Shown: one piece after another, positions 1 through 45,528 of the stretch
Position numbering within the stretch: the first letter of the stretch is position 1
Layout of the letters: the number at the start of each line of letters is the position of its first letter
Assembly: GCA_937919825.1 (NCBI GenBank)
Contig: CALFPA010000054.1
Location: 1 to 45,528, forward strand
DNA: 45,528 bases
From: an uncultured Spartobacteria bacterium
Lineage (GTDB): Bacteria; Verrucomicrobiota; Verrucomicrobiia; Chthoniobacterales; Terrimicrobiaceae
Direction of reading: 5' to 3'
The notes under the pieces: model-generated
The model's input: only the letters and a program-made list of their open reading frames with translations
Databases searched by the model: none
Told to the model about the DNA's origin: nothing
Made by a program: the position numbers and the translations under genes

Positions 1-588
1 GTAGTAGCGGACGAGCTGGAAGCTTTTGTCCGGGATATGCTGGGTGATGCGGGCGGCTTCGATCCATTCCTCGACCTCTTTCCAAACCGGATCGCCCTCG
101 AGCAGCGTGCCGGTGACTTGATGGAAATCGATGCCCGCGCGCTTGAAGGCGTTGGCGATTTCGGGAACCGGGCAGGCGGAGCACCACGCGAGCCAGTCTC
201 CGGTCATCTTCGTGCGGTCGCCGAGGTTGTTGAAGGCGGCGTAATCAATGGCCTCGCCGGGTTGGAGGTTCATGATCACCACCGGCACCTTGGCGCGTTG
301 CATCACGGGAAGGACGGTGGAGGACAGCGCGTAGGTCGTGACATGGAGGAAAACGATGTCCACCTCCGAGCGGCGGAAGTAACTCCCGGCCTCGACGGCG
401 CGCTCGGGCGAGTCCACCAGGCCGGCATTGCAGATTTCGACACCATCCTTGGCGAGTTTGCCGGCGACTTGGGTGAGATAACCTTCGAGGCGTTCCTTGA
501 GTCCGGCGAATTGCGGCCAGTAGGTATCGAGGCCGATGCCGAAAAGGCCGACGCGCAAGGGGTGCTTGGGTGCTTGGTTCGTTTTCAT
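1..588 (-). CDS. L-fucose/L-arabinose isomerase family protein (partial, 3' end outside window)
   Basis: The first 196 codons of a cytosolic sugar isomerase are visible; the C-terminal part, with most of the active site, lies beyond the window edge. The start region contains LRVGLFGIGLDTYWPQF, followed by a Rossmann-like stretch with FLHVTTYALSSTVLPV and a VVIMNLQP segment, a pattern I recognise from proteins annotated as L-fucose/L-arabinose isomerases. Such enzymes interconvert aldose and ketose forms of L-fucose or L-arabinose as the first catabolic step. The ATG at 588 overlaps the TGA of the upstream LamG gene (ATGA), so the two are probably translationally coupled. There is no signal peptide, as expected for a catabolic enzyme working on imported sugar. 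The exact substrate cannot be told from this fragment. Confidence 0.8.
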   Translation of the reverse strand, partial: MKTNQAPKHPLRVGLFGIGLDTYWPQFAGLKERLEGYLTQVAGKLAKDGVEICNAGLVDSPERAVEAGSYFRRSEVDIVFLHVTTYALSSTVLPVMQRAKVPVVIMNLQPGEAIDYAAFNNLGDRTKMTGDWLAWCSACPVPEIANAFKRAGIDFHQVTGTLLEGDPVWKEVEEWIEAARITQHIPDKSFQLVRYY

Positions 589-3500
589 TTGGGCTGTTGG
601 AGTTTTTTGAGGATCCAGGTCGTGTTGGGTTTTCCGTCGAGGGGGAGGTTGTAGGTGACGGTGTAGGTTTTTGACTCCGGGTCGAAGGATGTTTCCCAGA
701 AGTCATTTCCGTGGACGCTTTGATCGAGCGGTTGAGTTTCAGGGGAGAGGCGGGTTGCGAGGGAGGGGGCGAATTTGGCCATGAGCGGCAGGTATTCGCT
801 CAAAATCTGCTCTCCGGAAGTGACCTGCCCGATCTCCCAGCCTTTTGCCGAGTCGAGGCCTTCGAAGCGGACTGGCACGGCCCCGGCTCCGCCTTGGATT
901 TCGAGGCGAATCATGCTGGCTCCGGGGTCGGCCTTCACGACGATTGGGAAGTTGCGCAGGACGCTGGCGCCTTGCGCTTCGACTTGGAGGTCGTTGGCGA
1001 TGGCCAGCCGGTGGAAGGTTTTCCAGGAGCCCGGGTTTTCGGCGATGTGCTTTCGGAACGCCTCATTAGGGCCGTAGTAGTCGTCCACTTCGGCAGGGAT
1101 GACATCGATTTCGATATCCATCTCCACCGAGTCGCCTGCTTGGTATTTTTCGATTCCCGCAGGGGGAACGAGGACGGCATCGACATGGCATCGACCCTCG
1201 GCGCCAATTTCGCCCACGGGCAGCGAGAGGGTGGGGGAGTCGTAGGTCTTTCCACCGAAGTTCGCGCGATAGGAACGAACAACGAAGCCCCGGCTGCCGC
1301 TGGGCTGGCCTTCGAGTTTCGAGCCGGGAAAGCCCAGCCACCAAGGTTTGGGACCGGTGAGGACAAAGTGGTCCAGAGCGAGTTCAGTGGCCTTCAATCC
1401 CTTCGGGGCGTCGAGTTCCTTAATCAACCCATCCCGGTTTCCAATCGCGATTTTCGGGCAAAAAACTTTGCCCTGCCCGAGTCGGAAGAGCCACGAGTCC
1501 TTAGTGGGGAGTTCCGTGCGGAAGTCGTAGCGCAGGCGAATAAAAGTCTTGGCGTGGTCGTCGGTGCGCGGCGTGGAGACCTCGGCCTTGAGTTCGACCT
1601 CGCCGTTCGCTCCGTAGCTGCCTTGGTAAACCGTCTCCGGCAGGCAGGGGCCGTGCGAGAGATACGAGGTTTTCGTGCGGGCGAGCATGAGTTTTGTCCC
1701 CTTGGGACCATTGACCGAGAGCCAATCGCCACCCCATCCGGCATCGGACCATTGCCATTTTTTGCCATCCTTGCCTTGTCGAGTGAGGAGCGAGCGGACA
1801 TCGGTGATGGCACTGGCACTGGCGGAGAATTCGGGGTTGAAGCAGATCGTTTCGCCGTAGGAGCCGATGGCGAGCTGATCCCAGCGTCCGTTCGTGGTAT
1901 CGCCCCAGCCGACCAGTGAGAGTTGGCTGTTGCTGGCGGAGGGCAGGGATCCGTAGAAGCCATAGACGACTCGCAGGAGATACGTGGTTTTGCCGGGTGC
2001 GGCGGGCAGGAGGGTGTAGGCGCGCAGGTAATCGGGAAGGACGGTGTGGTGCCAGTTTTTAGAAAGTTGCACCGGGATTCCCGTGGGCGTGCCGTCGAGT
2101 TCACACAGCATCGGAACGAGTCCGGTGATGCTCGCCGTGCCGAGCATTTCCAGCATGAAAGGGACATTTCGCTCCGGCCCTTGGTTGTCGATTTCCACGA
2201 GGAATTCGTCGTAGTTTCTGGCGTCCCCCTCGCCACGGACAAATGGGCGGGTGAGGCGAGTCGTAGCCGGAACCTTGAAGCTGTAGGCGGCCTTGGCCAC
2301 AGTGCAGTCGTAGCGTGGTTCGAAGGCCGTTGGCACGGTTTGGTTGCCACTGGCTGAGACTTTGATCGAAACCCCCTCGTCCGGCTTGGAAGATCCGGGT
2401 AGATCGCAATTCAAGGTCAAGTTCTCACTGCGGGGATATGTCCAATCGCCCGAAATCTTTCGCTCCGCAGACTTTTCCAAGCCGCCGGCTTTGAAACGAA
2501 GGGCCAGCTCGGCGTCCTTCCACACGGGGTGGGTAATCACGGGAGGCTCGTCGAAGTTTGCCTGGTAAACCAATCCATCCTGCGAAGGAAGCGTGTCGGG
2601 GTTTTTAAAAATCGCGGCGATTTCCTGCTCGGAGAGGGCGCGATTCCACACGCGCACATCGTCGAAAGCGGCTTCCATGAGAAAGCCTCCATCGGGCCGC
2701 TGGCCTAGGCGCAGCAACCCGGTGCCAGGCGTGCGCTGGAGGTTGATGGCCTTTTCCCCGAGGGGACGGCCATTCGCATAGATGCGCATGGTCGAGCCGT
2801 CGTAGGTGAGTGCGCAGTGGTGCCATTGGCCCTTCACATCGAGATCCGGGGCGCTTGCGCTAACGCGATGGATATTGTTTGTGCCAGCGCTGTAAATGCT
2901 CATGGCGGCATCGACTTTTCCCCAACGGCCCAGCAAAAGACCAAAGTAGCCGTCTTTGTTTTCGTTCCAGTTTTTTGCAAAAATCGCCCCGGTTTTCCGA
3001 GAGCGTTCGTCGCGCAGGAACCAGCACTCCGCCGTGAAAGCGGGCGAGTCTAGGCCCAGGGCGTCTGGGATTTCCAATGGTTTGGTGCGAACTGATTGGG
3101 AGGAACCCTTGCGTCCGGGAGCCAAGCCGTCGCCGTAATTAAAATCCGGTCGGAGATCGAGGGTGAAGTTCAGGCTTTGCGGCCAGGCGACGACAGCCAG
3201 CGAGCCGTAGGCTGGGAGAATATTCCCCTCCGCATCCTCGAAACGCACTTCCCTCAGTTCGTAATGCTGGGCGAGGCGGGCGGATTCCCATAGCCAGACA
3301 TCCGCAAACGGCGTGGCCCTGTTTGTATCCCAACCTGCACGGCAGGAGGCCATCTTGTAGGCGCGGCCGCCGACTTTGACCTCCGCCTCCAATTCTCCCT
3401 CTGGCAAATTCTTCAAGCGCTCCAAAGCCATCCCGCCGGCTTGCAGATAGCCGGCTTTATCCTCCAGCAACCCGAAGCGGACGCTGCGTGGACTCGCGAT

Positions 3501-3686
3501 GTTCCACTGGAATCCATAATAACCAGACTCGATGGAAAGCAGGGCGGGATCGACCGAGCCGGGTTCACGCAGCCAAGTTCCCTCCCAATAACCGTAAGTG
3601 TAGTCGAGCGGCGAGGGCGCAGGCTGGGCGGAAGTGAATGACGATGTGGCGAGGAGGGCGGCGAGAAGAAGCGGGAGTCGGGTCAT
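585..3686 (-). CDS. Large secreted protein with LamG/concanavalin-like domain, function unknown
   Basis: A 1033-residue protein with a clear signal peptide (MTRLPLLLAALLATSSFTSA, then QPAPSP). Residues about 195-360 form a LamG/jellyroll domain: AECWF near the start, GQWHHCALTYDGSTMRIYANG in the middle and FDDVRVWNRALSEQEIAAIF at the end. Most of the remaining 670 residues look like beta-rich modules that I cannot assign to a named family; no glycosidase catalytic signature is evident. It probably acts in the periplasm or at the cell surface, binding or processing glycan. Its stop overlaps the start of the isomerase gene by ATGA, tying it to deoxy-sugar or pentose catabolism. It starts 46 bases after the stop of the prepilin-like gene. 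The ATG at 3686 is chosen because it directly precedes the signal peptide. Confidence 0.8.
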   Translation of the reverse strand: MTRLPLLLAALLATSSFTSAQPAPSPLDYTYGYWEGTWLREPGSVDPALLSIESGYYGFQWNIASPRSVRFGLLEDKAGYLQAGGMALERLKNLPEGELEAEVKVGGRAYKMASCRAGWDTNRATPFADVWLWESARLAQHYELREVRFEDAEGNILPAYGSLAVVAWPQSLNFTLDLRPDFNYGDGLAPGRKGSSQSVRTKPLEIPDALGLDSPAFTAECWFLRDERSRKTGAIFAKNWNENKDGYFGLLLGRWGKVDAAMSIYSAGTNNIHRVSASAPDLDVKGQWHHCALTYDGSTMRIYANGRPLGEKAINLQRTPGTGLLRLGQRPDGGFLMEAAFDDVRVWNRALSEQEIAAIFKNPDTLPSQDGLVYQANFDEPPVITHPVWKDAELALRFKAGGLEKSAERKISGDWTYPRSENLTLNCDLPGSSKPDEGVSIKVSASGNQTVPTAFEPRYDCTVAKAAYSFKVPATTRLTRPFVRGEGDARNYDEFLVEIDNQGPERNVPFMLEMLGTASITGLVPMLCELDGTPTGIPVQLSKNWHHTVLPDYLRAYTLLPAAPGKTTYLLRVVYGFYGSLPSASNSQLSLVGWGDTTNGRWDQLAIGSYGETICFNPEFSASASAITDVRSLLTRQGKDGKKWQWSDAGWGGDWLSVNGPKGTKLMLARTKTSYLSHGPCLPETVYQGSYGANGEVELKAEVSTPRTDDHAKTFIRLRYDFRTELPTKDSWLFRLGQGKVFCPKIAIGNRDGLIKELDAPKGLKATELALDHFVLTGPKPWWLGFPGSKLEGQPSGSRGFVVRSYRANFGGKTYDSPTLSLPVGEIGAEGRCHVDAVLVPPAGIEKYQAGDSVEMDIEIDVIPAEVDDYYGPNEAFRKHIAENPGSWKTFHRLAIANDLQVEAQGASVLRNFPIVVKADPGASMIRLEIQGGAGAVPVRFEGLDSAKGWEIGQVTSGEQILSEYLPLMAKFAPSLATRLSPETQPLDQSVHGNDFWETSFDPESKTYTVTYNLPLDGKPNTTWILKKLQQPK

Positions 3687-3732
3687 GTGCGAGTTAGCTA
3701 TTTGTGAGTGTATGTTTCTTTAAGTTCGTGCC

Positions 3733-6273
3733 CTACTGACCTAACGGGATTTGTTGGGTGTAGAGTTTTTTGACTTTGTATTCGGCGGGGGTGGCCTCGG
3801 TGGCGGGAGTGGTGATTTCCACTTCTACTAATGTTTTCGTGAGGGCCTCGCCTTCGATGTTTTGTTGGGTGTCCAAGGCTTGGGCATAGGCATAGATGGT
3901 GAAGAAGTTACTGCAGGTGCTTGCTCCTGGAAAAAAGGGCGAAAGGCGGTTTTCATTTAATTTGATAAATCTCGAATCAGCAGAATTGAATCGAGTTACA
4001 GTATGAAAAGTTGTTGTTGAGTTAGATGTTATTACTATGTCAGCTATATCTCTTATTTCGACGACTTCAGATGGGAGCACAAAAGAATCAGTGGGATACT
4101 TTTTGTTTTTTCGTATAGTATTTGTAGAGTTATTTGTTGATCCCCAAAAAGAAACCGGAGACCATTTTATATTTTCAATATTATTAGCTAGAAGTTCAGA
4201 CCAACTAAAACTGCTTGAAACGCCTCCGTTTATCCTTGCTGCGTTTAGTAAATCAGCACCAAGCGAATAATTTGTGCTGTATGCATAAGCTATAGAGCTT
4301 CCGGGGGTTCCGCCTAGATCATACGGGTTTTTGAAAATAGGGGTATTAGATGAATTAGCAGGTATAGCATCAAATGAATTTAACAATGAGGAAAGACCAA
4401 TTGTTCGATTTGAAGTGAAATTACCACTTGAAGTTATAAACTTTCTATTGATATTAATTGGGGGAGCGAGGTTAAGACTCAGGTTTGATGATGTGGTATT
4501 TGTTCCAAATGAAATCAAATCAAGTAAAGCTCGATCTGGAATGAGGGTTTGAGATGTAAAGTTCCCCCCACCGTCATTAGAACTCACTTCATTCTTGGGC
4601 TGCAACTGGATGCGCAATCTTCGCCAAGGGTAATTGGTTGGCACTTTTCCAATATCGGCCGGGGAAGTAAATGTATTATTCCCATTTGCAGAATCTAAAA
4701 AGGCGAAGGTAGAATTTGTGCTCAATGTTCTAGCTCCAGGAGTCATATATGGGTAAGGCCATTCAAATATATGGTTTGGGACACCATATGCATGCTGATA
4801 AAAATATAACCAGATATTACCTTGATGTCCGTTTAAATAAGGATCTCCGGAGATTGTGTTGTTTCTTGTCCATGTTGTCTGAGAATTATTCCAATTCGAC
4901 CATTGCCCAGTCAAGCCGTAGCCCTTTTCAACAGTTCCTACTTGGGTGCCTGTTGGATCAGTTGGGGTTCCCCAAGTGCTGTTGCCAAAGCTGGTCCAAG
5001 ACCATGTTGAGTTGGAGTCAAAAGAAATCCAAGGTTTTGTTGTATAATTACCTGCACTTGTCATTGATCTCACATGTGGGCAGATGCGAGAGTAGCTTTT
5101 TAGTGGGGCTGGAACTGGCTCCGGATCGGCCCAATCGGGGTTAATTATAGAAGAGTTATTCGATGTAAATGGAAAAGAAAAGCCTGATAAATTTGTAGTC
5201 GATGGAGTTATAATAAAGTCACCAATATCTCTACCGCCCACAACCCAATCTCTTGTAGATGAGTTATTATTGTAATCTGCTAGCAGGCGTAAGTTTTTAA
5301 TACTTGCAGTTACATTACCAATTTGGTTAATTGTAATATTGCTCGATATGGGATAGGAGAAGCCAATGGAAATTTCTCCAACGCGACCTGTTTTTCCAAG
5401 TGTTCCTATGTGGTATTTAAAAGCTTCGCTATAAAGCCAACTCAATGCGCCATTAGCAGCATTACGATTTCTACGGGCTGTTCCAATTGTCCAGCTGGCG
5501 GGAGGAGTATTATTATTTCGCCAATCATTCGGATCTTCCCACCCTATATTCTGCGTATAAGTAGCATTCGGATTTGTAAAAAAATAGTTAAATGGACCAC
5601 TCGTTCCGTTTGCTCCCCACGCACCTCCCAAGGTGGCGTTACTTGTAGTTCCATTGGAAGAATAATTAACAACAAAATTTACATTGTCTAAAGTGGCTAA
5701 AAGCCTCGCTTTTTGATTAGGGTCTAGTCCGAGAACTAAGTATTCATTTATTGGGCATTCCACACAAATCTGGAGTATGATTCTTGCCCGCATAGATGTG
5801 CCTACTTTCTCAATAGCGAGCCTAGCATTCATTCCAACTTCATTAATTTGTGTATATGGAGCGTAGCCTAAATATTCCATCGGAATACCATTGGAATCCA
5901 AGTTATCCGAACCGATTAAATTGCCGCTGAAAGCCATGCTCTTGTTGGGATTCATGGTATCTCTAGATCTATATTGCAACATATTGGCGGCAATTTGCTT
6001 GAGTCCAGTTAGCGAGTATTTATCAGCAAATGTTTGCCCGTAGATGTTTTTAAAATGTATGCTGGAAAGGGCATCTACGATTTTATTTACGCCAGTGGAG
6101 TTTAACGGGATTTCTGCGGTATCGTTTATAAATAGGCGCCGTGCACCCCAAGGGGTGTATTTCATGTGAAAATCACGCGGGGGGGGGCGGTAAAAAAAGC
6201 CGGGGGGTATGTGGTGCTGTTTATTGAAAAGCCAAGGGAGTAAACCTGCTCGGGACGGAATATGTGGGTCCAA
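3733..6273 (-). CDS. C-terminal part of frameshifted prepilin-like giant protein (Verru_Chthon-type)
   Basis: This reading frame encodes about 820 residues that continue the protein begun at 6998. Its apparent start is a TTG at 6273 inside the upstream fragment, and its first ~30 codons only re-read that fragment in another frame; the true sequence begins near YTPWGARRLFINDTAEIP. The two frames meet at a run of nine C on the coding strand (6179-6187), so a one-base slip would rejoin them into one protein of about 1,100 residues. The protein is very rich in Asn, Ser and Thr and in N-x-S/T triplets. The DNA from about 3950 to 6140 is strikingly AT-rich compared with both flanks. Similar long prepilin-like proteins occur in Verrucomicrobiota (Verru_Chthon cassette protein A); that match is from memory of family features and is only moderately sure. 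The C-terminus ends in KKLYTQQIPLGQ. Confidence 0.6.
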   Translation of the reverse strand: MDPHIPSRAGLLPWLFNKQHHIPPGFFYRPPPRDFHMKYTPWGARRLFINDTAEIPLNSTGVNKIVDALSSIHFKNIYGQTFADKYSLTGLKQIAANMLQYRSRDTMNPNKSMAFSGNLIGSDNLDSNGIPMEYLGYAPYTQINEVGMNARLAIEKVGTSMRARIILQICVECPINEYLVLGLDPNQKARLLATLDNVNFVVNYSSNGTTSNATLGGAWGANGTSGPFNYFFTNPNATYTQNIGWEDPNDWRNNNTPPASWTIGTARRNRNAANGALSWLYSEAFKYHIGTLGKTGRVGEISIGFSYPISSNITINQIGNVTASIKNLRLLADYNNNSSTRDWVVGGRDIGDFIITPSTTNLSGFSFPFTSNNSSIINPDWADPEPVPAPLKSYSRICPHVRSMTSAGNYTTKPWISFDSNSTWSWTSFGNSTWGTPTDPTGTQVGTVEKGYGLTGQWSNWNNSQTTWTRNNTISGDPYLNGHQGNIWLYFYQHAYGVPNHIFEWPYPYMTPGARTLSTNSTFAFLDSANGNNTFTSPADIGKVPTNYPWRRLRIQLQPKNEVSSNDGGGNFTSQTLIPDRALLDLISFGTNTTSSNLSLNLAPPININRKFITSSGNFTSNRTIGLSSLLNSFDAIPANSSNTPIFKNPYDLGGTPGSSIAYAYSTNYSLGADLLNAARINGGVSSSFSWSELLANNIENIKWSPVSFWGSTNNSTNTIRKNKKYPTDSFVLPSEVVEIRDIADIVITSNSTTTFHTVTRFNSADSRFIKLNENRLSPFFPGASTCSNFFTIYAYAQALDTQQNIEGEALTKTLVEVEITTPATEATPAEYKVKKLYTQQIPLGQ

Positions 6274-6998
6274 GACCTGATGTCGCTTGTTGAGTTGGAA
6301 GCGCCCCCGTCAAAAAGGGTAGTTATTGCATTCTCTGTCGCTGCACCGATTCCACTCAAGACAGTAAGTGAAAGCGGGCGCGAATCTGCTGCATTAATGG
6401 TGCTGCGGTTGCCAGTGGAGGCGTTCAAATTGATTTTTGTGCCATCGTCGTCGACATAATAAGCCACCCGCCCAACCACGGTTCCATTTACTGTGATTTC
6501 TTCCAAGGGCAGGTCTATACGCTGGCTGGCGTTTCCTGTGATCGTCCATGCGTTGTCAGCGCCGTTCCCAGATAGCGTTGCGTTGAGGGTGGGGTTGTTG
6601 AGGTAATTTAGATTGGCAGTTCCATTTGTGGTGGCATTGCCGCCGCCAGTAAACAAATTGACTGTGCGGTTCGAGGTGATGTTGCCGTTTTGAAATACAA
6701 ACTGCCGGATGGCGCCGGGTTGGCTGGTAATGACCGTGGTGGTCGTGGTGCCGGTGCCGTTGACAGTGAAGCCTTGCTGGATTTTTGCCATGGCCTGCTG
6801 GGTGGCCATTTCGGCGAGGCCGGAGGCGGCGTTTTGACGGGAGAAATTCTTGGCGGCGATCTGCTCCACGCGGGCAGTGGAAAGGAAGGAGACAGTAATA
6901 GTGGCAAGCAATGCGGTAATCAGCAGGACAAGAATCAGTGCGCTGCCGGAGTTGGCTTGGCTGTTTTTAAAAAACCCCTTTATGTATCTAAAACCCAT
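6162..6998 (-). CDS. N-terminal part of frameshifted prepilin-like giant protein (PilX/pseudopilin-type N-terminus)
   Basis: The 278-residue fragment starts with a short basic leader followed by SGSALILVLLITALLATITV, one hydrophobic helix typical of PilX/GspK-like minor pilins. Next comes QIAAKNFSRQNAASGLAEMA, resembling the helical stalk of such proteins, and then an Asn/Thr-rich region with VGRVAYYVDDDGTKINLNAS, a motif I associate with large verrucomicrobial prepilin-like proteins. Translation in this frame runs into TGA at 6162-6164 just after the C9 tract at 6179-6187, whereas the other frame continues for about 800 residues. The ATG follows immediately on the TAA of the GH78-like gene (TAAATG), so the two share a transcript. 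The role is probably surface or secretion related. Whether the break is a sequencing error, a phase-variable switch or a true mutation cannot be decided here. Confidence 0.65.
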   Translation of the reverse strand: MGFRYIKGFFKNSQANSGSALILVLLITALLATITVSFLSTARVEQIAAKNFSRQNAASGLAEMATQQAMAKIQQGFTVNGTGTTTTTVITSQPGAIRQFVFQNGNITSNRTVNLFTGGGNATTNGTANLNYLNNPTLNATLSGNGADNAWTITGNASQRIDLPLEEITVNGTVVGRVAYYVDDDGTKINLNASTGNRSTINAADSRPLSLTVLSGIGAATENAITTLFDGGASNSTSDIRSWTHIFRPEQVYSLGFSINSTTYPPAFFTAPPRVIFT

Positions 6999-9506
6999 TT
7001 AGTTTAGCGCTTCCGAGTAAGCTTGGTATGCGGTGGATTCGTTGAGCAGTTGTGCCCTCTGCGCTCCCATGGTCGAGGTTTTCAGCGGCGAGTGCTTCTC
7101 AGGACTCTTGATGTGGATCAAGTTGACGCTCGGCGTTTGGGCAAATGTGAGGGTTCCTGCGAAATCTCCGGGCGCCAGATCGAGCAGCAGTCGCGTTCCT
7201 GCAGGGGTGCCCCGGAGTCGCTTTCCATTGAGGAGGATTTCTTCCTGACCGGGTGCGGCGGGCAAGGAAAGCCTGGCGGCCGTATCGGAGGGGATGGTGC
7301 CTTGGAAATGGAGTTCGCCCTCCGCTTGGTGCCAGGAGATCGGCACCGGGCCGAATTCCGTGACCACCACGCCTTCGGCTTCGTGGAGGTCGCCGAGGTG
7401 AGGTTCGATGAGGATTTGCCTGTCCGTTGCTGTCCCCACGCGGCGAATGCCGAGGACATGGGAACTCAAAAAACAGCCGGGGAACATGCCGTAGCTATGG
7501 GCCTTCGAATGCCCGTCCTCCACTTCCGAAAACTCCCACGAGCATTGCCAGGGATGGGCGGCCATGGCCTGCCAACCTTGGCGGAACATCGCCAGCACCC
7601 GCTCGTCGAGGTCCCGGCGGTCGAGTGCGTAGAGTTGTTTAATCACGAAGTAGTAAACCATGATCGAGCCGGTGATTTTCTCCGGCAGGAGCCTGAGAAT
7701 CGCGTCGATCACCCGCTCGCGGCGCTCGGGTGGCACGAGGCCCCGGTCCAACGCGAAAATATTCGAATGCAGGGTCGGTTCGTAGAAGTCGCCCTGCTTG
7801 GTGAGGTCGATCGATTGACGGAACATCTGGTCGCCAGGGAGGATTTCGAGATCTCCAACGCCGGAAAAATACGAGCCCGATTTCTCGTCCCACAAAATGC
7901 GGTTGATGATCGCCGCCAAATCCTCTGCCTCCTTGGCGAAGCGGGCGGCTTCGGCGTTTTCCCCGATGGCGGAGGCGAGGCAGGCGCTGTCCGCAAGGGC
8001 TCGTTGGACGAAGGCGTTGATCGTGGTCGTTTGGCCGGTGGCGTAGCTGAGAGGGTTGTCCCAAACCACCCAATCGCGGCAGGAAATGAGGCCCCGGTCG
8101 CCTCGGAGATTTAGGAAAAAATCCATCTGCGCGACGACGGCGGGCCACAGTTCTTTGAGGAGCGCCGTATCCCCGGTGGCTTCGTAGTAAAGCCGAAGAC
8201 CCTCCACCCAAGCGCAGCAGCGGTCCTCCATTTTCGCGTGGAGATCGTAGCGGTCCGAGCAAGTGTGGGCTTTGACCCAGCCCGCAGGTTGGAGTGTCAG
8301 TGCCGTGCGGCGGAGCAGTGCCCCGAGCAGGCGGGCATCGCTGAAAACCGGCTTTCCATCTGGCCCGGGAGGCCCCGCCATCGCCGTCTGGGTGATGTCG
8401 AAAAGTGGCGGAGTCGTATCCATCCACTCGACCCGCTCGCGATCGGCGCAATCCACATACGCCTCCTCGCTCAAAATCTCACAGGAGCGGGCGCACATTT
8501 CCCAAAGTCGGTTCAAAAACGCATCGTCGCAATGGAATTTTCCAATTCGGGAAAAGGGATACACGCGCTCGATCAACTTCACCTCGTCGATGACCGCGCG
8601 GCCGTGCCTGACGGTGATCTCGAATTCGGTGACGCCTTTGGAGTCGATCGGGAAATAGGTCTGCCGCCCCTCTCTCGCGATATAGGTGGAGTTGTAGGGA
8701 GCGATCTCCAGCTCCGTGCCGGCCTCCGCCGTGAAGGAAATAGCGGGATACGCCTGCACAATTCGGCCTGCCTGAAAGCGCACGCTCTGGCCGGCCGTGA
8801 GAGTTGCGGGCAGGTCGGTGCTGGATTGGACCGGCACCGGGGTTTCGCGAAGGAGCGGAATGCGTCGGGCGGTGAGCGGCCCCCAGGCTTGGCCATCAAT
8901 GCTGGTGGCCGATTCCCATTCACGCTCGTCGTAGTTTGCCGAGGTCCAGTCTCCATCGACGATGCGGGCATCGACGCGGGAGTCGAGGACCTCTGCCCAG
9001 GTGGACTCCACTTTTTGCCAAGGATTTTTTCGCGTGTATTTCCAGGAGGCGTCGGTTTTCAGAACTTCGCCGGCGTCGCAAGCGAGCACCGCCGCGAGCC
9101 CCGGGGCATGGCGCATGATTTTTCCGGTGGAGAGATTCCCCAGGACTAAAACGGCCAGAGCGTTTGTGCCCTCGCGCAAGTGTGGCGCGATTTCCAAGAC
9201 ATCGTATTCCGGCCCGTTAGGCTGGAAGCGGCCGGGGCCGCGATCGACATAGCGTCCGTTCACCCAAAGGATGTAGCGGGCATCGGCGAAAATCGACAGC
9301 GAGGCGCGATCCGGCACCTTCTCGAGCGGGAAAGTTTTTCGAAATGTGACCGCCACCGGCTCGTCATCCGTTTCCGGTCCAGCCCAGATCATCGAGGATT
9401 GCAACCTCGCGCCGACGGCGTCGGCTGCGGTGCCACGAAAACTGATCAAGTCAGGCTGCGGCGGGAGCAATGGGTTGCTCGATGGGTCGGGTGATTCCCT
9501 TCGCAT
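6999..9506 (-). CDS. GH78-like alpha-L-rhamnosidase family protein
   Basis: An 835-residue enzyme with the GH78 layout: an N-terminal beta-sandwich with FRKTFPLEKV, ADARYILWVNGRYVDRGPGR and an EIAPHLREGTNALAV stretch; a six-hairpin (alpha/alpha)6 domain starting near LNRLWEMCARSCEI; and a C-terminal beta-sandwich (EGVVVTEFGPVPISW). The GH78 active-site loop, usually CPQRDERxxWxGD, appears as CADRERVEWMDTTPP, so the acidic positions are partly kept but the final GD is changed. GH78 enzymes release terminal L-rhamnose. No signal peptide is visible at the annotated N-terminus, so the location is uncertain. The ATG at 9506 overlaps the TAA of the EF-hand gene by one base (TAATG). The last ~45 residues after TLTFAQTP look like a non-domain tail. 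GH78-type fold is fairly sure; rhamnose specificity is inferred. Confidence 0.75.
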   Translation of the reverse strand: MRRESPDPSSNPLLPPQPDLISFRGTAADAVGARLQSSMIWAGPETDDEPVAVTFRKTFPLEKVPDRASLSIFADARYILWVNGRYVDRGPGRFQPNGPEYDVLEIAPHLREGTNALAVLVLGNLSTGKIMRHAPGLAAVLACDAGEVLKTDASWKYTRKNPWQKVESTWAEVLDSRVDARIVDGDWTSANYDEREWESATSIDGQAWGPLTARRIPLLRETPVPVQSSTDLPATLTAGQSVRFQAGRIVQAYPAISFTAEAGTELEIAPYNSTYIAREGRQTYFPIDSKGVTEFEITVRHGRAVIDEVKLIERVYPFSRIGKFHCDDAFLNRLWEMCARSCEILSEEAYVDCADRERVEWMDTTPPLFDITQTAMAGPPGPDGKPVFSDARLLGALLRRTALTLQPAGWVKAHTCSDRYDLHAKMEDRCCAWVEGLRLYYEATGDTALLKELWPAVVAQMDFFLNLRGDRGLISCRDWVVWDNPLSYATGQTTTINAFVQRALADSACLASAIGENAEAARFAKEAEDLAAIINRILWDEKSGSYFSGVGDLEILPGDQMFRQSIDLTKQGDFYEPTLHSNIFALDRGLVPPERRERVIDAILRLLPEKITGSIMVYYFVIKQLYALDRRDLDERVLAMFRQGWQAMAAHPWQCSWEFSEVEDGHSKAHSYGMFPGCFLSSHVLGIRRVGTATDRQILIEPHLGDLHEAEGVVVTEFGPVPISWHQAEGELHFQGTIPSDTAARLSLPAAPGQEEILLNGKRLRGTPAGTRLLLDLAPGDFAGTLTFAQTPSVNLIHIKSPEKHSPLKTSTMGAQRAQLLNESTAYQAYSEALN

Positions 9507-25917: not shown

Positions 25918-26133
25918 GGGAGAGGGGAATAGAAATGTTTCTATTTTTTGGTGGACTGCCTGCTGGAGAGGGTTCGGGTTTCCATGAAAGAGGGCACGGT
26001 CAACAATAGAGGCGCAATAGCCGCACCGCCACCGGGAAATCAGCCTTCGCCATTTAGCGTATCACAAAAGCCATTTCATCGATTTCCCGAATGTCGCTCA
26101 TGGGCGATAGGTGAATCTGTCGCCACCTCCATC

Positions 26134-28383
26134 ATGACACGTTCCCTCATCTCCCCGGCCGCACGGCTTGTAATTGTCGTCGTTGTTCTGTTGCTCCCCG
26201 AACTCCAAGCGCAAACGACCTATTACTGGGACAGCAACGACTCCAGTGCCGGTTTTGGCACGGCGCAGGGCACATGGGCTTCGCCAACCACGAACAACTC
26301 CACCCAAGGCTGGAGCACCTCCTCGGCGGGCACCAACGCCATGTCCGGCACGACAAACACCACCACTTCCGATGCGTTGAATTTCGGCACCTCCTCGGAC
26401 GGACTTGCGGCGGGCACGATCACCGTCTCGGGCACAGTGGGTGCCAATTCGCTCACCTTCGGCTCGGCCTCGGGGGCAATCGTGCTCTCCGGCGGCACCA
26501 TCTCCCTCGGCGGCACAACACCGACGATCACTGTCAGCAATGCTTCCGATACGATTTCCTCGGCAATCACTGGCTCGGCAGGCCTCACCAAGAGCGGCTC
26601 TGGCACGCTGATTCTCTCGGGCTCGAACACCTACTCCGGCAATACGACGATCAGCGTTGGCACACTCAAGGCAGGGAGCACGACGGCGCTGAGCAGCAGC
26701 AGCGCGATGAGCGTCGCGGCTGGGGCCACTTTGGATTTGGGGGGATTCAACAATACCATCAGCAGCCTCTCCACAGCCACCGGCACGATCACGGATAGTT
26801 CGAGTGCCGGAAATGGGGGAACTTTGAGAATCCTGAGCGCGATGCCCGCTGCCACCACCGCACAGCTGTTCACCGGCAGCATGGGAATCCAGCTTTTTGG
26901 AGGAAACACATTTACCTCTATTCTCTCGAATACATCGAATACCTATTCAGGCGGCACAGTGTTTGGAAATGGGGCAGGCACCACCTTCACACGACTTTTT
27001 GCGAGTGGCACGATTGGCTCGGGTTCCCCTGGAGCGCTCACAAGCGGCATCTACGGAACGGGCGCGATCACTGTGGGTGCATCCACTACGGATCGAGTGC
27101 AATTTTACATCTTCGCTGCCGCAACCATAAACAACAACCTTGTGATCAATAGTGAGCAAGGCAATGGAGTGAACGAGTTAGGTGCGTTCCGTCTCGAAAG
27201 CTCGGGCAATACGATTGCGGGGGCAATCAATGCCAACCTGGCGGATTTAACAATCAACGCCATGAACGGCGGAGGGCGCACGCTAACGATCACTGGAGCC
27301 ATTTCCGGCAGCTACGGGCTCAATGTCATGACCGCAAGTTCCGGAGGCTTGGAGGTCACCCTCAACAACGCCGGAGTCACCAACAGCTATGCTGGGAACA
27401 CAACCATCAGCACGGCCAACTCCACATTGACTCTCGGTCGGGCAGACCAAATCGCCAACGGTGCGGGCAAGGGCAACCTCATCATCAACTCCGGCACCTT
27501 CAAAATGGGCGGCTACAATGAAACCATCAACGGACTCTCTGGCAACGGCACCATCGACGGGGTGAGCGGCACGCCGACTTTGACGATTGGCGATAATGAC
27601 ACCACCTCCACCTTCTCCGGCGTGATCAAAAACACCTCCGGCTCGCTGGCTTTGACGAAGATCGGCTCGGGCACGCTCACTCTCTCAGGCAACAATACCT
27701 ACTCCGGCAATACGACCATCAATGGCGGAACGCTCGCCATCGGCAATAACATGACGATCGGTGCCCTAGCCGGCGCTGGCGGCAACCTTTCACTCGGAGC
27801 AGGATTCACCCTCACTACCAACGCCTCCACAAGCACCACATTGTCCAGCATCGTGCAAGGCACCGGCAACTTGGCAAAATCCGGCTCCGGCACACTCACG
27901 CTTTCCGGCAACAACACCTATTCGGGCGATACTACCATCAATGCCGGAACGCTCGAAATCACCAGCACCGGTCTGCTCGGCGGCGGCACCTACTCGGGGA
28001 ATATCACCAACAGCGGCACCTTCCTCTTCGGCTCGAACAGCAACCAAACCATCTCGGGCAGAATCAGCGGATCTGGAGCCATCACCAAAAACGGCACCAG
28101 CAGGCTGTCTGCCAATATGACAGGTGGCACCATGGGCCAAATCACCGTCAATGGTGGAACATTGCGTTTGAACAATACCGCAACTCTAAATAACGCCAAC
28201 ATACTTATACTTAACAGTCTGACCACGATCAACAACGGTTCGACCCTGGAATTCGACGCTAGTAGCACGGAAGGTCGCGTTAGGATCGCTGGCGGCGTCA
28301 CCTTTGGCGCCAGCGGAAACAATACATTGGCTTATAATACCTTCAGTGGCACTGGCGGCTCAATGCTTATCCAAGGTTCATAA
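26134..28383 (+). CDS. Autotransporter-type beta-strand repeat protein, N-terminal part (ends at in-frame TAA)
   Basis: A secreted surface protein built from autotransporter-associated beta-strand repeats. The frame is open from a TTG at 25948, but the ATG at 26134 is preferred since it directly starts a signal peptide (MTRSLISPAARLVIVVVVLL, cleavage after LQAQ). The mature part begins TTYYWDSNDSSAGFGTAQG, the common opening of such proteins. Gly/Ser/Thr/Asn-rich beta-helix sequence follows, with three well-kept copies of the repeat GSGTLxLSGxNTYSGxTTI near 26584, 27650 and 27870. The frame ends at TAA 28381-28383, but the same frame continues without shift to 29763 with more repeats and a sorting signal, so this is a truncated product of a gene that once encoded about 1,210 residues. 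Without the C-terminus the product would probably be released rather than anchored. Confidence 0.75.
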   Translation: MTRSLISPAARLVIVVVVLLLPELQAQTTYYWDSNDSSAGFGTAQGTWASPTTNNSTQGWSTSSAGTNAMSGTTNTTTSDALNFGTSSDGLAAGTITVSGTVGANSLTFGSASGAIVLSGGTISLGGTTPTITVSNASDTISSAITGSAGLTKSGSGTLILSGSNTYSGNTTISVGTLKAGSTTALSSSSAMSVAAGATLDLGGFNNTISSLSTATGTITDSSSAGNGGTLRILSAMPAATTAQLFTGSMGIQLFGGNTFTSILSNTSNTYSGGTVFGNGAGTTFTRLFASGTIGSGSPGALTSGIYGTGAITVGASTTDRVQFYIFAAATINNNLVINSEQGNGVNELGAFRLESSGNTIAGAINANLADLTINAMNGGGRTLTITGAISGSYGLNVMTASSGGLEVTLNNAGVTNSYAGNTTISTANSTLTLGRADQIANGAGKGNLIINSGTFKMGGYNETINGLSGNGTIDGVSGTPTLTIGDNDTTSTFSGVIKNTSGSLALTKIGSGTLTLSGNNTYSGNTTINGGTLAIGNNMTIGALAGAGGNLSLGAGFTLTTNASTSTTLSSIVQGTGNLAKSGSGTLTLSGNNTYSGDTTINAGTLEITSTGLLGGGTYSGNITNSGTFLFGSNSNQTISGRISGSGAITKNGTSRLSANMTGGTMGQITVNGGTLRLNNTATLNNANILILNSLTTINNGSTLEFDASSTEGRVRIAGGVTFGASGNNTLAYNTFSGTGGSMLIQGS

Positions 28384-29165
28384 ACTTTCACTACCCTCGG
28401 AGGCACGACTAATTATATCACCACCAATGCAGGTGCCTACTTTAACTGTCAAGGTGTAGCGGGTCGATATGCCATCTTCGATGTGGCCGACGGCACGGAT
28501 GCCACCGACTTGGCGGTGAGCATGGCAGTGGTAGATAGCGGTATCAGAAAAAGCGGAGCCGGCGTGCTGACCCTGAGCGCCAGCAACACTAACATCAATG
28601 CCCTCGACATCACCAATGGCACACTGGAGTTGGCCGGGGCGGGGCTCTTAAACAGCGGCGCTTTCTCCGTCGACATCACCAACAACGGCACATTGCACTA
28701 TAACGGCTCCAACGCCCAAACCCTCTCTGGCAATATCAGTGGCACGGGCGCTCTAACCAAATCCAACACCAGCACTCTCACGCTCACAGGATCTAACTCT
28801 TACTCCGGTGCGACGACGCTCAACACCGGCACGATCGTCATCGGCCACGCCAATGCCGCTGGTAGCGGGACGATCACCCAGACCGATGCCACCTCGCTTC
28901 TGAAATTCGACACCACCGGCACAATCACAAATGTCATGTCGGTCTACAATGTCCTCGCCACCCAAAGTGCGACCTTGAGCGGTGCGATCACAGTGAACAA
29001 TGCCACTTGGGACATCGAAACCGGCGACACACTCACCGTCTCCGGCGCGGTCTCCGGCAGCGGCGGCGTGACCAAAAACGGCGGCGGCACATTGATCCTC
29101 TCCGGCTCGAATTCCTACAACGGATCGACAGTCATCAACGCCGGCACACTGAACGCCGCCAATGC
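26584..29165 (+). repeat. Five dispersed autotransporter-type repeats within the surface protein gene
   Basis: Five copies of a roughly 32-residue unit, consensus LTKxGSGTLTLSGxNTYSG followed by xTTINxGTLxxxN, lie near 26584-26680, 27650-27745, 27870-27960, 28751-28850 and 29066-29160. They are protein-level repeats with diverged DNA and correspond to rungs of a beta-helix. Three lie before and two after the in-frame stop, supporting a single ancestral gene. Confidence 0.75.
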
Positions 29166-29763
29166 CAACGCCCTCGGATCCAATAACACCATCCAAGTCA
29201 ACGGCGGCACGCTGCTCGTGAGTGCCGACGACGCCATCAACGGAATGAACATCACCCTCAACGGCACCAGCACGACCGTGGCTGGTCTGGCTTTTAGCGG
29301 AAACTACAGCGGATTGGTGGATAACTTAACCTTGAGCAATAACTCGATCATCGACCTGGGAGAGGGAAGTGTATCCATCATGTTCGATACCATTGTCATG
29401 AGCACCTACATGCTCGACATCTACAACTGGACCGGGACGACGCTGTGGGGTGGGGGAACCGGCAACGACACGGACAAAGTTTATTTCGGCCCGGACCTCA
29501 GCGACGCCGCGCTGGCGAAAATCAGGTTCCACAGCGGTGCGGTGGGCGTTGGCGACAGCTTCCTCGGCAGCGGCTACGACCTAGGTCTTCAGGCAACGAG
29601 CTGGGATCCGGGACTAAGCGGCTACCACATCATCCCCGTTCCCGAACCCGAAACCTGGGCCACCGGCCTCCTGCTCGTGCTAGGCAGCGGTGTCTGGCGC
29701 TGGCGGAAGAGAAGCAGGTTCAGCACACAAAGGATGGTGGGCGCTGCGCCGTCAGCGCCTTAA
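28384..29763 (+). pseudogene. Autotransporter-type beta-strand repeat protein, C-terminal part with PEP-CTERM-like signal
   Basis: This is the continuation, in the same frame, of the gene starting at 26134 after the TAA at 28381-28383. It begins TFTTLGGTTNYITTNAG and holds two further repeats (STLTLTGSNSYSGATTL near 28755 and GTLILSGSNSYNGSTVI near 29070). The C-terminus is a PEP-CTERM-type sorting signal: VPEPETW, a hydrophobic helix ATGLLLVLGSGVW, then the basic cluster RWRKRSR. A further 15 residues follow the basic cluster, which is longer than usual. A GTG at 28483 could in principle initiate translation, but without a signal peptide the product would not be exported, so independent function is unlikely unless the stop is suppressed or is a sequence error. 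Confidence 0.65.
29740..29759. other. Short perfect hairpin at the 3' end of the surface protein gene
   Basis: GGCGCTG at 29740-29746 pairs with CAGCGCC at 29753-29759 around a six-base loop. No T-run follows on the plus strand, so it is not a classical terminator. It overlaps the codons of the unusual C-terminal extension after the PEP-CTERM signal. The rest of the gap up to clpX (29764-29975) shows no gene. Confidence 0.4.
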
Positions 29764-45420: not shown

Positions 45421-45528
45421 TCAAGGCTGGGCCGGAGCGGGAGGGTTTGGAGGCGTGGGCGTGGGCGTGGGCGTGGGCGTGGGCGTGGGCGTGGGCGTGG
45501 GCGTTGGCGTGGGCGTGGGCGTGGGCGT
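45421..45528 (-). CDS. C-terminal end of a protein with Thr-Pro repeat tail (partial)
   Basis: The last 35 codons of a gene that enters from the right edge. Read on the minus strand in one frame they give thirteen Thr-Pro pairs followed by PNPPAPAQP and TGA at 45421-45423. The hexamer repeat keeps this frame throughout, and the stop sits 8 bases before the sulfatase ATG, as expected for an operon neighbour. Thr-Pro tails usually act as extended linkers at the cell surface. The function cannot be told, as the body of the gene is outside the window. Confidence 0.5.
   Translation of the reverse strand, partial: TPTPTPTPTPTPTPTPTPTPTPTPTPPNPPAPAQP
45452..45528 (+). repeat. Hexanucleotide tandem repeat GGGCGT (about 12.5 units, continues past window)
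   Basis: Near-perfect tandem copies of GGGCGT run to the window edge, with one substitution at 45505 (GGG to TGG) that is silent on the minus strand (Pro CCC to CCA). The unit is six bases, so gain or loss of copies would lengthen or shorten the encoded Thr-Pro tail without shifting frame. Confidence 0.9.

Follow-up and report, generated by a model that had tools for sequence, protein, structure and literature searches.

The locus and its two reading frames

The window analysed here is the whole of a 45,528-nucleotide contig (C54) from an uncultured Spartobacteria bacterium. On its minus strand, frame A (6162-6998) opens with ATG and encodes 278 amino acids, and frame B (3733-6273) is listed from a TTG codon as 846 amino acids. 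The two frames overlap over 6162-6273, and passing from A to B requires a shift of minus one. Three homopolymers are found on this strand within about 36 bases: C9 at 6179-6187, T7 at 6192-6198 and C6 at 6202-6207. The original prediction that two overlapping frames exchange at the C9 tract, with the T7 and C6 runs nearby, is confirmed by these coordinates and by the alignments presented below. The same prediction called the gene giant, which is too strong, since the joined protein of about 1080 amino acids has an ordinary length for its family (roughly 700-1740 amino acids).

Frame B is a real coding sequence, as its 814 codons contain no stop where the two alternative frames on the same strand contain 54 and 69, and as it has significant homologues. 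It is entered near the C9 tract and not at the listed TTG; the portion downstream of the tract (3733-6178, minus strand) ends with the conserved tail EYKVKKLYTQQIPLGQ. Across the window, the single C9/G9 run observed compares with 1.05 expected, which is chance level, and the probability of a run of this type in a gene of such size and dinucleotide make-up is about 0.03. The C9 tract is nevertheless the sole run of at least 8 bases in the 3263-bp gene, and the frame exchange falls there. If indels could occur anywhere, the exchange would lie inside C9 in 9 of 3263 cases (about 0.3%); its coincidence with the tract is not due to chance.

Family assignment

The N-terminus of frame A is prepilin-like (SG/SALILVLLITALLATITVSFLS). 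Positions 1-80 of the TIGR02600 profile (Verru_Chthon_A) match frame A with an E-value of 5.9e-18 and 64.2 bits, for a curated cut-off of 332.3 bits that is likewise out of reach of three intact homologues (60-66 bits). Throughout the N-terminal half and these homologues, the match covers profile positions 1-80/108 with E-values of 1e-16 to 1e-18. The GspK profile NF037980 also matches the N-terminus (E-values of 1e-5 and 2.8e-6), with 25 bits against a curated cut-off of 130. The portion of frame A preceding the tract (6188-6998, minus strand) would accordingly belong to a large pseudopilin that can be termed GspK/Verru_Chthon_A-like, far under the curated cut-offs of both models. Frame B matched no Pfam or NCBIfam model. 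No cassette partner, B (TIGR02598) or C (TIGR02599), was detected on the contig, and one weak C-like TIGR02599 match was found on contig C118 of the same genome, beside pilin-like genes. The absence of partner B is uncertain since the TIGR02598 search gave no match anywhere. The structure predicted for the intact homologue of genome G003 reached a mean pLDDT of 31.7, too poor for a fold search or for a verdict on a GspK core, and a literature search on the Verru_Chthon cassette and on large prepilins of Verrucomicrobia returned nothing useful.

Homologues and gene neighbourhood

When frame B was searched against 97 related genomes, the homologues recovered were confined to the same genus. In the closest relative found, the Lake Pavin verrucomicrobial metagenome-assembled genome G003, the homologue consists of one uninterrupted frame of 1028 amino acids whose first part is 60% identical to frame A and whose remainder is 34% identical to frame B over 846 positions. 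Single-frame homologues are also carried by G011 (Terrimicrobiaceae), by G009 and G005 (both Spartobacteria) and by the genome under study itself, where a second copy of 980 amino acids, its start cut off, resides on contig C57. The search for full-length homologues proposed with the original prediction has therefore been carried out, and the five near-full-length homologues each consist of a single frame; none is encoded as the two separate genes that the prediction had named as its possible refutation. The gene order is shared as well: an alpha-L-rhamnosidase-like gene lies directly upstream (6999-9506, minus strand) and a LamG-domain secreted protein is encoded directly downstream (585-3686, minus strand), and G003 presents the same operon slot of rhamnosidase, pilin-like gene and LamG protein. 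By homology, frames A and B are read as the two halves of one gene. Additional sequences from the same species were sought in viral contigs, using the flank of the tract, with no match, and in genome contigs, which returned just the known relatives and one fragment.

The relatives differ in the C-terminal part of the pseudopilin gene, which has been exchanged for a new C-terminal part accompanied by a redoxin gene. In G003 (L036:10970-11690) and on contig C57 (L038:2943-3683), a redoxin gene comes next after the pseudopilin gene, and beyond it lies a displaced copy of the last ~45 bases of the pseudopilin gene; in G003 this copy stands directly before the LamG gene. The two redoxin genes are 89% identical. 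Compared with the tail of the window's gene, the displaced tails are identical over 26 bases and the tails inside the G003 and C57 genes show four differences. The corresponding locus of the window (3686-3780) carries neither redoxin gene nor displaced tail.

Two further observations were made elsewhere in the window. A second large surface-type gene, with PATR repeats and a PEP-CTERM-like end (25933-29760, plus strand), is cut by an in-frame TAA at 28381-28383; its homologue on contig C4 of G003 is open over 1890 codons. At the contig end (~45450-45528, minus strand), a short repeat, AHAHAHANAHAH, occurs upstream of a sulfatase gene and is probably the reason why the contig stops.

Position of the frame change

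The conserved Thr-Ala pair directly preceding the C9 tract is read in frame A, the same bases giving Tyr-Arg in frame B, and the conserved DFHxKYTPWGARR segment directly following the tract is read in frame B (G011, TAPLSDFHLKYTPWGARRL; window, PPPRDFHMKYTPWGARRL). On the strength of these residues, the frame change is assigned to the interior of C9. The T7 and C6 runs were ruled out as sites of the change because the conserved Thr-Ala, which lies between each of them and C9, is still in frame A. The tract was also rejected as a recombination junction: third-position GC content (GC3) declines gradually, with no sharp drop, and G011 has the same local arrangement in a single frame. None of the five homologues possesses a run of at least 8 bases in the gene or of at least 6 bases at the position of the tract, where their DNA is composed of mixed codons.

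This placement bears on the possibility that the locus consists of two genes, in which frame B would restart by translational coupling at the ATG overlapping the frame-A stop and yield a protein of about 810 residues. The TGA (6162-6164) does share bases with this ATG, the two overlapping at 6162-6165 as ATGA (ACATGAAA). The arrangement is nonetheless highly improbable: the homologues are all fused in one frame, the restart product would be devoid of an export N-terminus, no Shine-Dalgarno sequence was seen, and the DFH codons conserved with G011 sit in frame B upstream of that ATG.

In principle, one message could yield both short and full-length products, either through programmed minus-one frameshifting by the ribosome or through transcriptional slippage at the C tract. 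The direction of the A to B passage is the appropriate one, the run supplies C CCC CCC slippery codons and the frame-B half is preserved. Against such recoding, which we regard as very unlikely, the frame exchange occurs in no homologue, the downstream RNA structure is unremarkable (z -0.57) and no Shine-Dalgarno-like stimulator was seen by eye upstream of the tract.

Age of the break and base composition

Of 132 positions at which the other five members do not vary, the C-terminal half of the window's gene retains 107, about the same fraction as the N-terminal half (46 of 58). A similar leave-one-out measure gives 132 of 215 for the intact G011 gene, placing the C-terminal half of the window's gene within the spread of intact members. 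As conserved positions are kept and the 814 codons of frame B are free of stops, decay has not begun, and by this measure the break is either very recent or an artefact.

The base composition of the gene (3733-6998, minus strand) is uneven, with a GC3 of 0.61 in the N-terminal half and 0.35 in the C-terminal half. Most homologues display a mid-gene dip followed by a recovery to about 0.5-0.7; in the window's copy GC3 remains low to near the end. The low value of the C-terminal half may point to another origin or to weaker selection.

Homopolymer runs in the family and in the genome

The original prediction had offered two explanations for the frame exchange, a sequencing error or a phase switch. 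According to the second, C9 would be a species-specific contingency locus where slipped-strand mispairing toggles the full-length pseudopilin, the assembly having captured the off state. Several features speak for it. The protein is of a surface type, and C9 has one mark of phase-variable genes, a change of frame at a repeat tract inside the coding sequence, with the exchange falling exactly in this poly-C of nine. The clustering of C6, T7 and C9 is also unusual, three runs of at least 6 bases starting within 25 nucleotides in only about 0.5% of Markov simulations. In meningococcus, homopolymers of at least 8 bases are mostly variable (PMC5084427), and in Akkermansia, a member of the same phylum, phase variation has been proposed for genes with runs longer than 8 bp (PMC3048395); on the basis of these tract lengths, C9 could slip.

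The family and the genome speak against an evolved switch. Of 288 genomes of the phylum, 156 contain matches to the Verru_Chthon_A model, and nearly all of these matches mark the beginning of a frame ~700-1700 amino acids long. Among the matches listed, 15 frames are shorter than 600 amino acids, that of the window included; 12 of the others were inspected and none changes frame at a run of 7 bases or longer; they comprise frames truncated at contig ends, genes the size of GspK, further short genes and an in-frame stop. Runs are infrequent in the long homologues, a C8 and a G9 being examples, and lie in frame. Neither conservation of the tract in orthologues nor its recurrence in the family, a further mark of phase-variable genes, was found.

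In the organism's own genome, 41 runs were inspected: 8 C/G runs of at least 9 bases, 19 C/G runs of exactly 8 and 14 A/T runs of exactly 9. By this inspection, only the C9 of the window splits a gene. C/G runs of 9-10 bases lie in frame within genes for Maf, an FAD oxidoreductase, an EamA transporter and FlgK (L030, L031, L033 and L034), and a C11 run lies at the end of a LytTR response regulator gene. The in-frame runs in such housekeeping genes indicate that C-runs are not generally miscounted in this assembly, and that they are no speciality of surface proteins. The 8 C/G tracts of at least 9 bases are few for a whole genome, and the 41 runs include no set of surface genes broken at homopolymers.

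Nothing in the analysis indicates useful slippage at C9, and an evolved on/off switch is not supported. What stands of the earlier pair of explanations is a single gene, intact in its homologues, that is split by a length change of C9 through error or slippage; the phase switch does not, since the tract occurs in no homologue, the 12 short frames of the family that were inspected are unbroken at homopolymers and the 41 runs of the genome reveal no set of broken surface genes. We consider species-specific phase variation unlikely. Slightly less credence still is given to the broader proposition of a free-living verrucomicrobium using a poly-C switch for a GspK-like surface pseudopilin at a locus whose relatives swap the C-terminal part.

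Origin and consequences of the break

The locus is most probably one GspK-like pseudopilin gene affected by a single, isolated and very recent slippage in C9, in the form of a consensus error or of a loss of function, and not by an evolved switch. A consensus error at the homopolymer and a real, recent loss-of-function slippage in the sampled population have about equal shares in this explanation. The observations underlying it are the homology of both halves, the single-frame homologues, the placement of the change in C9 and the tract's absence elsewhere. One slip within C9, whether in the living cell or while the consensus was being built, would put the two halves out of frame. As assembled, the gene would direct ribosomes to make a membrane-anchored stub of 278 residues, comprising the prepilin part followed by some stray residues, with little or none of the remaining ~810 residues being produced. 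Such a loss may be tolerable given the second intact copy on contig C57. With pilin-like genes present on contig C118, it is plausible that the intact protein could be exported.

In genomes assembled from environmental DNA, a gene broken at a homopolymer is readily taken for a phase switch. Here, comparative evidence allowed the break to be placed exactly and showed that it is isolated, in an uncultured freshwater-type verrucomicrobium whose relatives give no sign of an evolved on/off switch. If reads showed mixtures of tract lengths, the locus would represent a large pseudopilin switched by slipped-strand mispairing in a bacterium that is not host-associated.

Comparison with known systems

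The locus resembles the poly-C/poly-G phase-variable surface genes of Neisseria and Campylobacter, and those proposed in Akkermansia, in its surface-type protein and in the C9 at the frame exchange. It differs from them by a tract that is not conserved and by the lack of a genome-wide set of such genes. The tract length given here comes from a single assembly. With GspK, the minor pseudopilin of type II secretion (NF037980), the protein shares a prepilin-like N-terminal segment and a match over the next ~150 residues; it is about three times longer, stays at 25 bits where 130 are called for, and its gene does not adjoin other gsp genes within the window. Compared with Verru_Chthon_A (TIGR02600), this family reaches 51-66 bits where the cut-off is 332, the match lies mainly in the N-terminus and the gene stands without an adjacent B or C cassette partner, whereas the ~80-100 N-terminal residues matching profile positions 1-80, the similar overall length (~1000-1700 amino acids in relatives) and the phylum Verrucomicrobiota are common to both.
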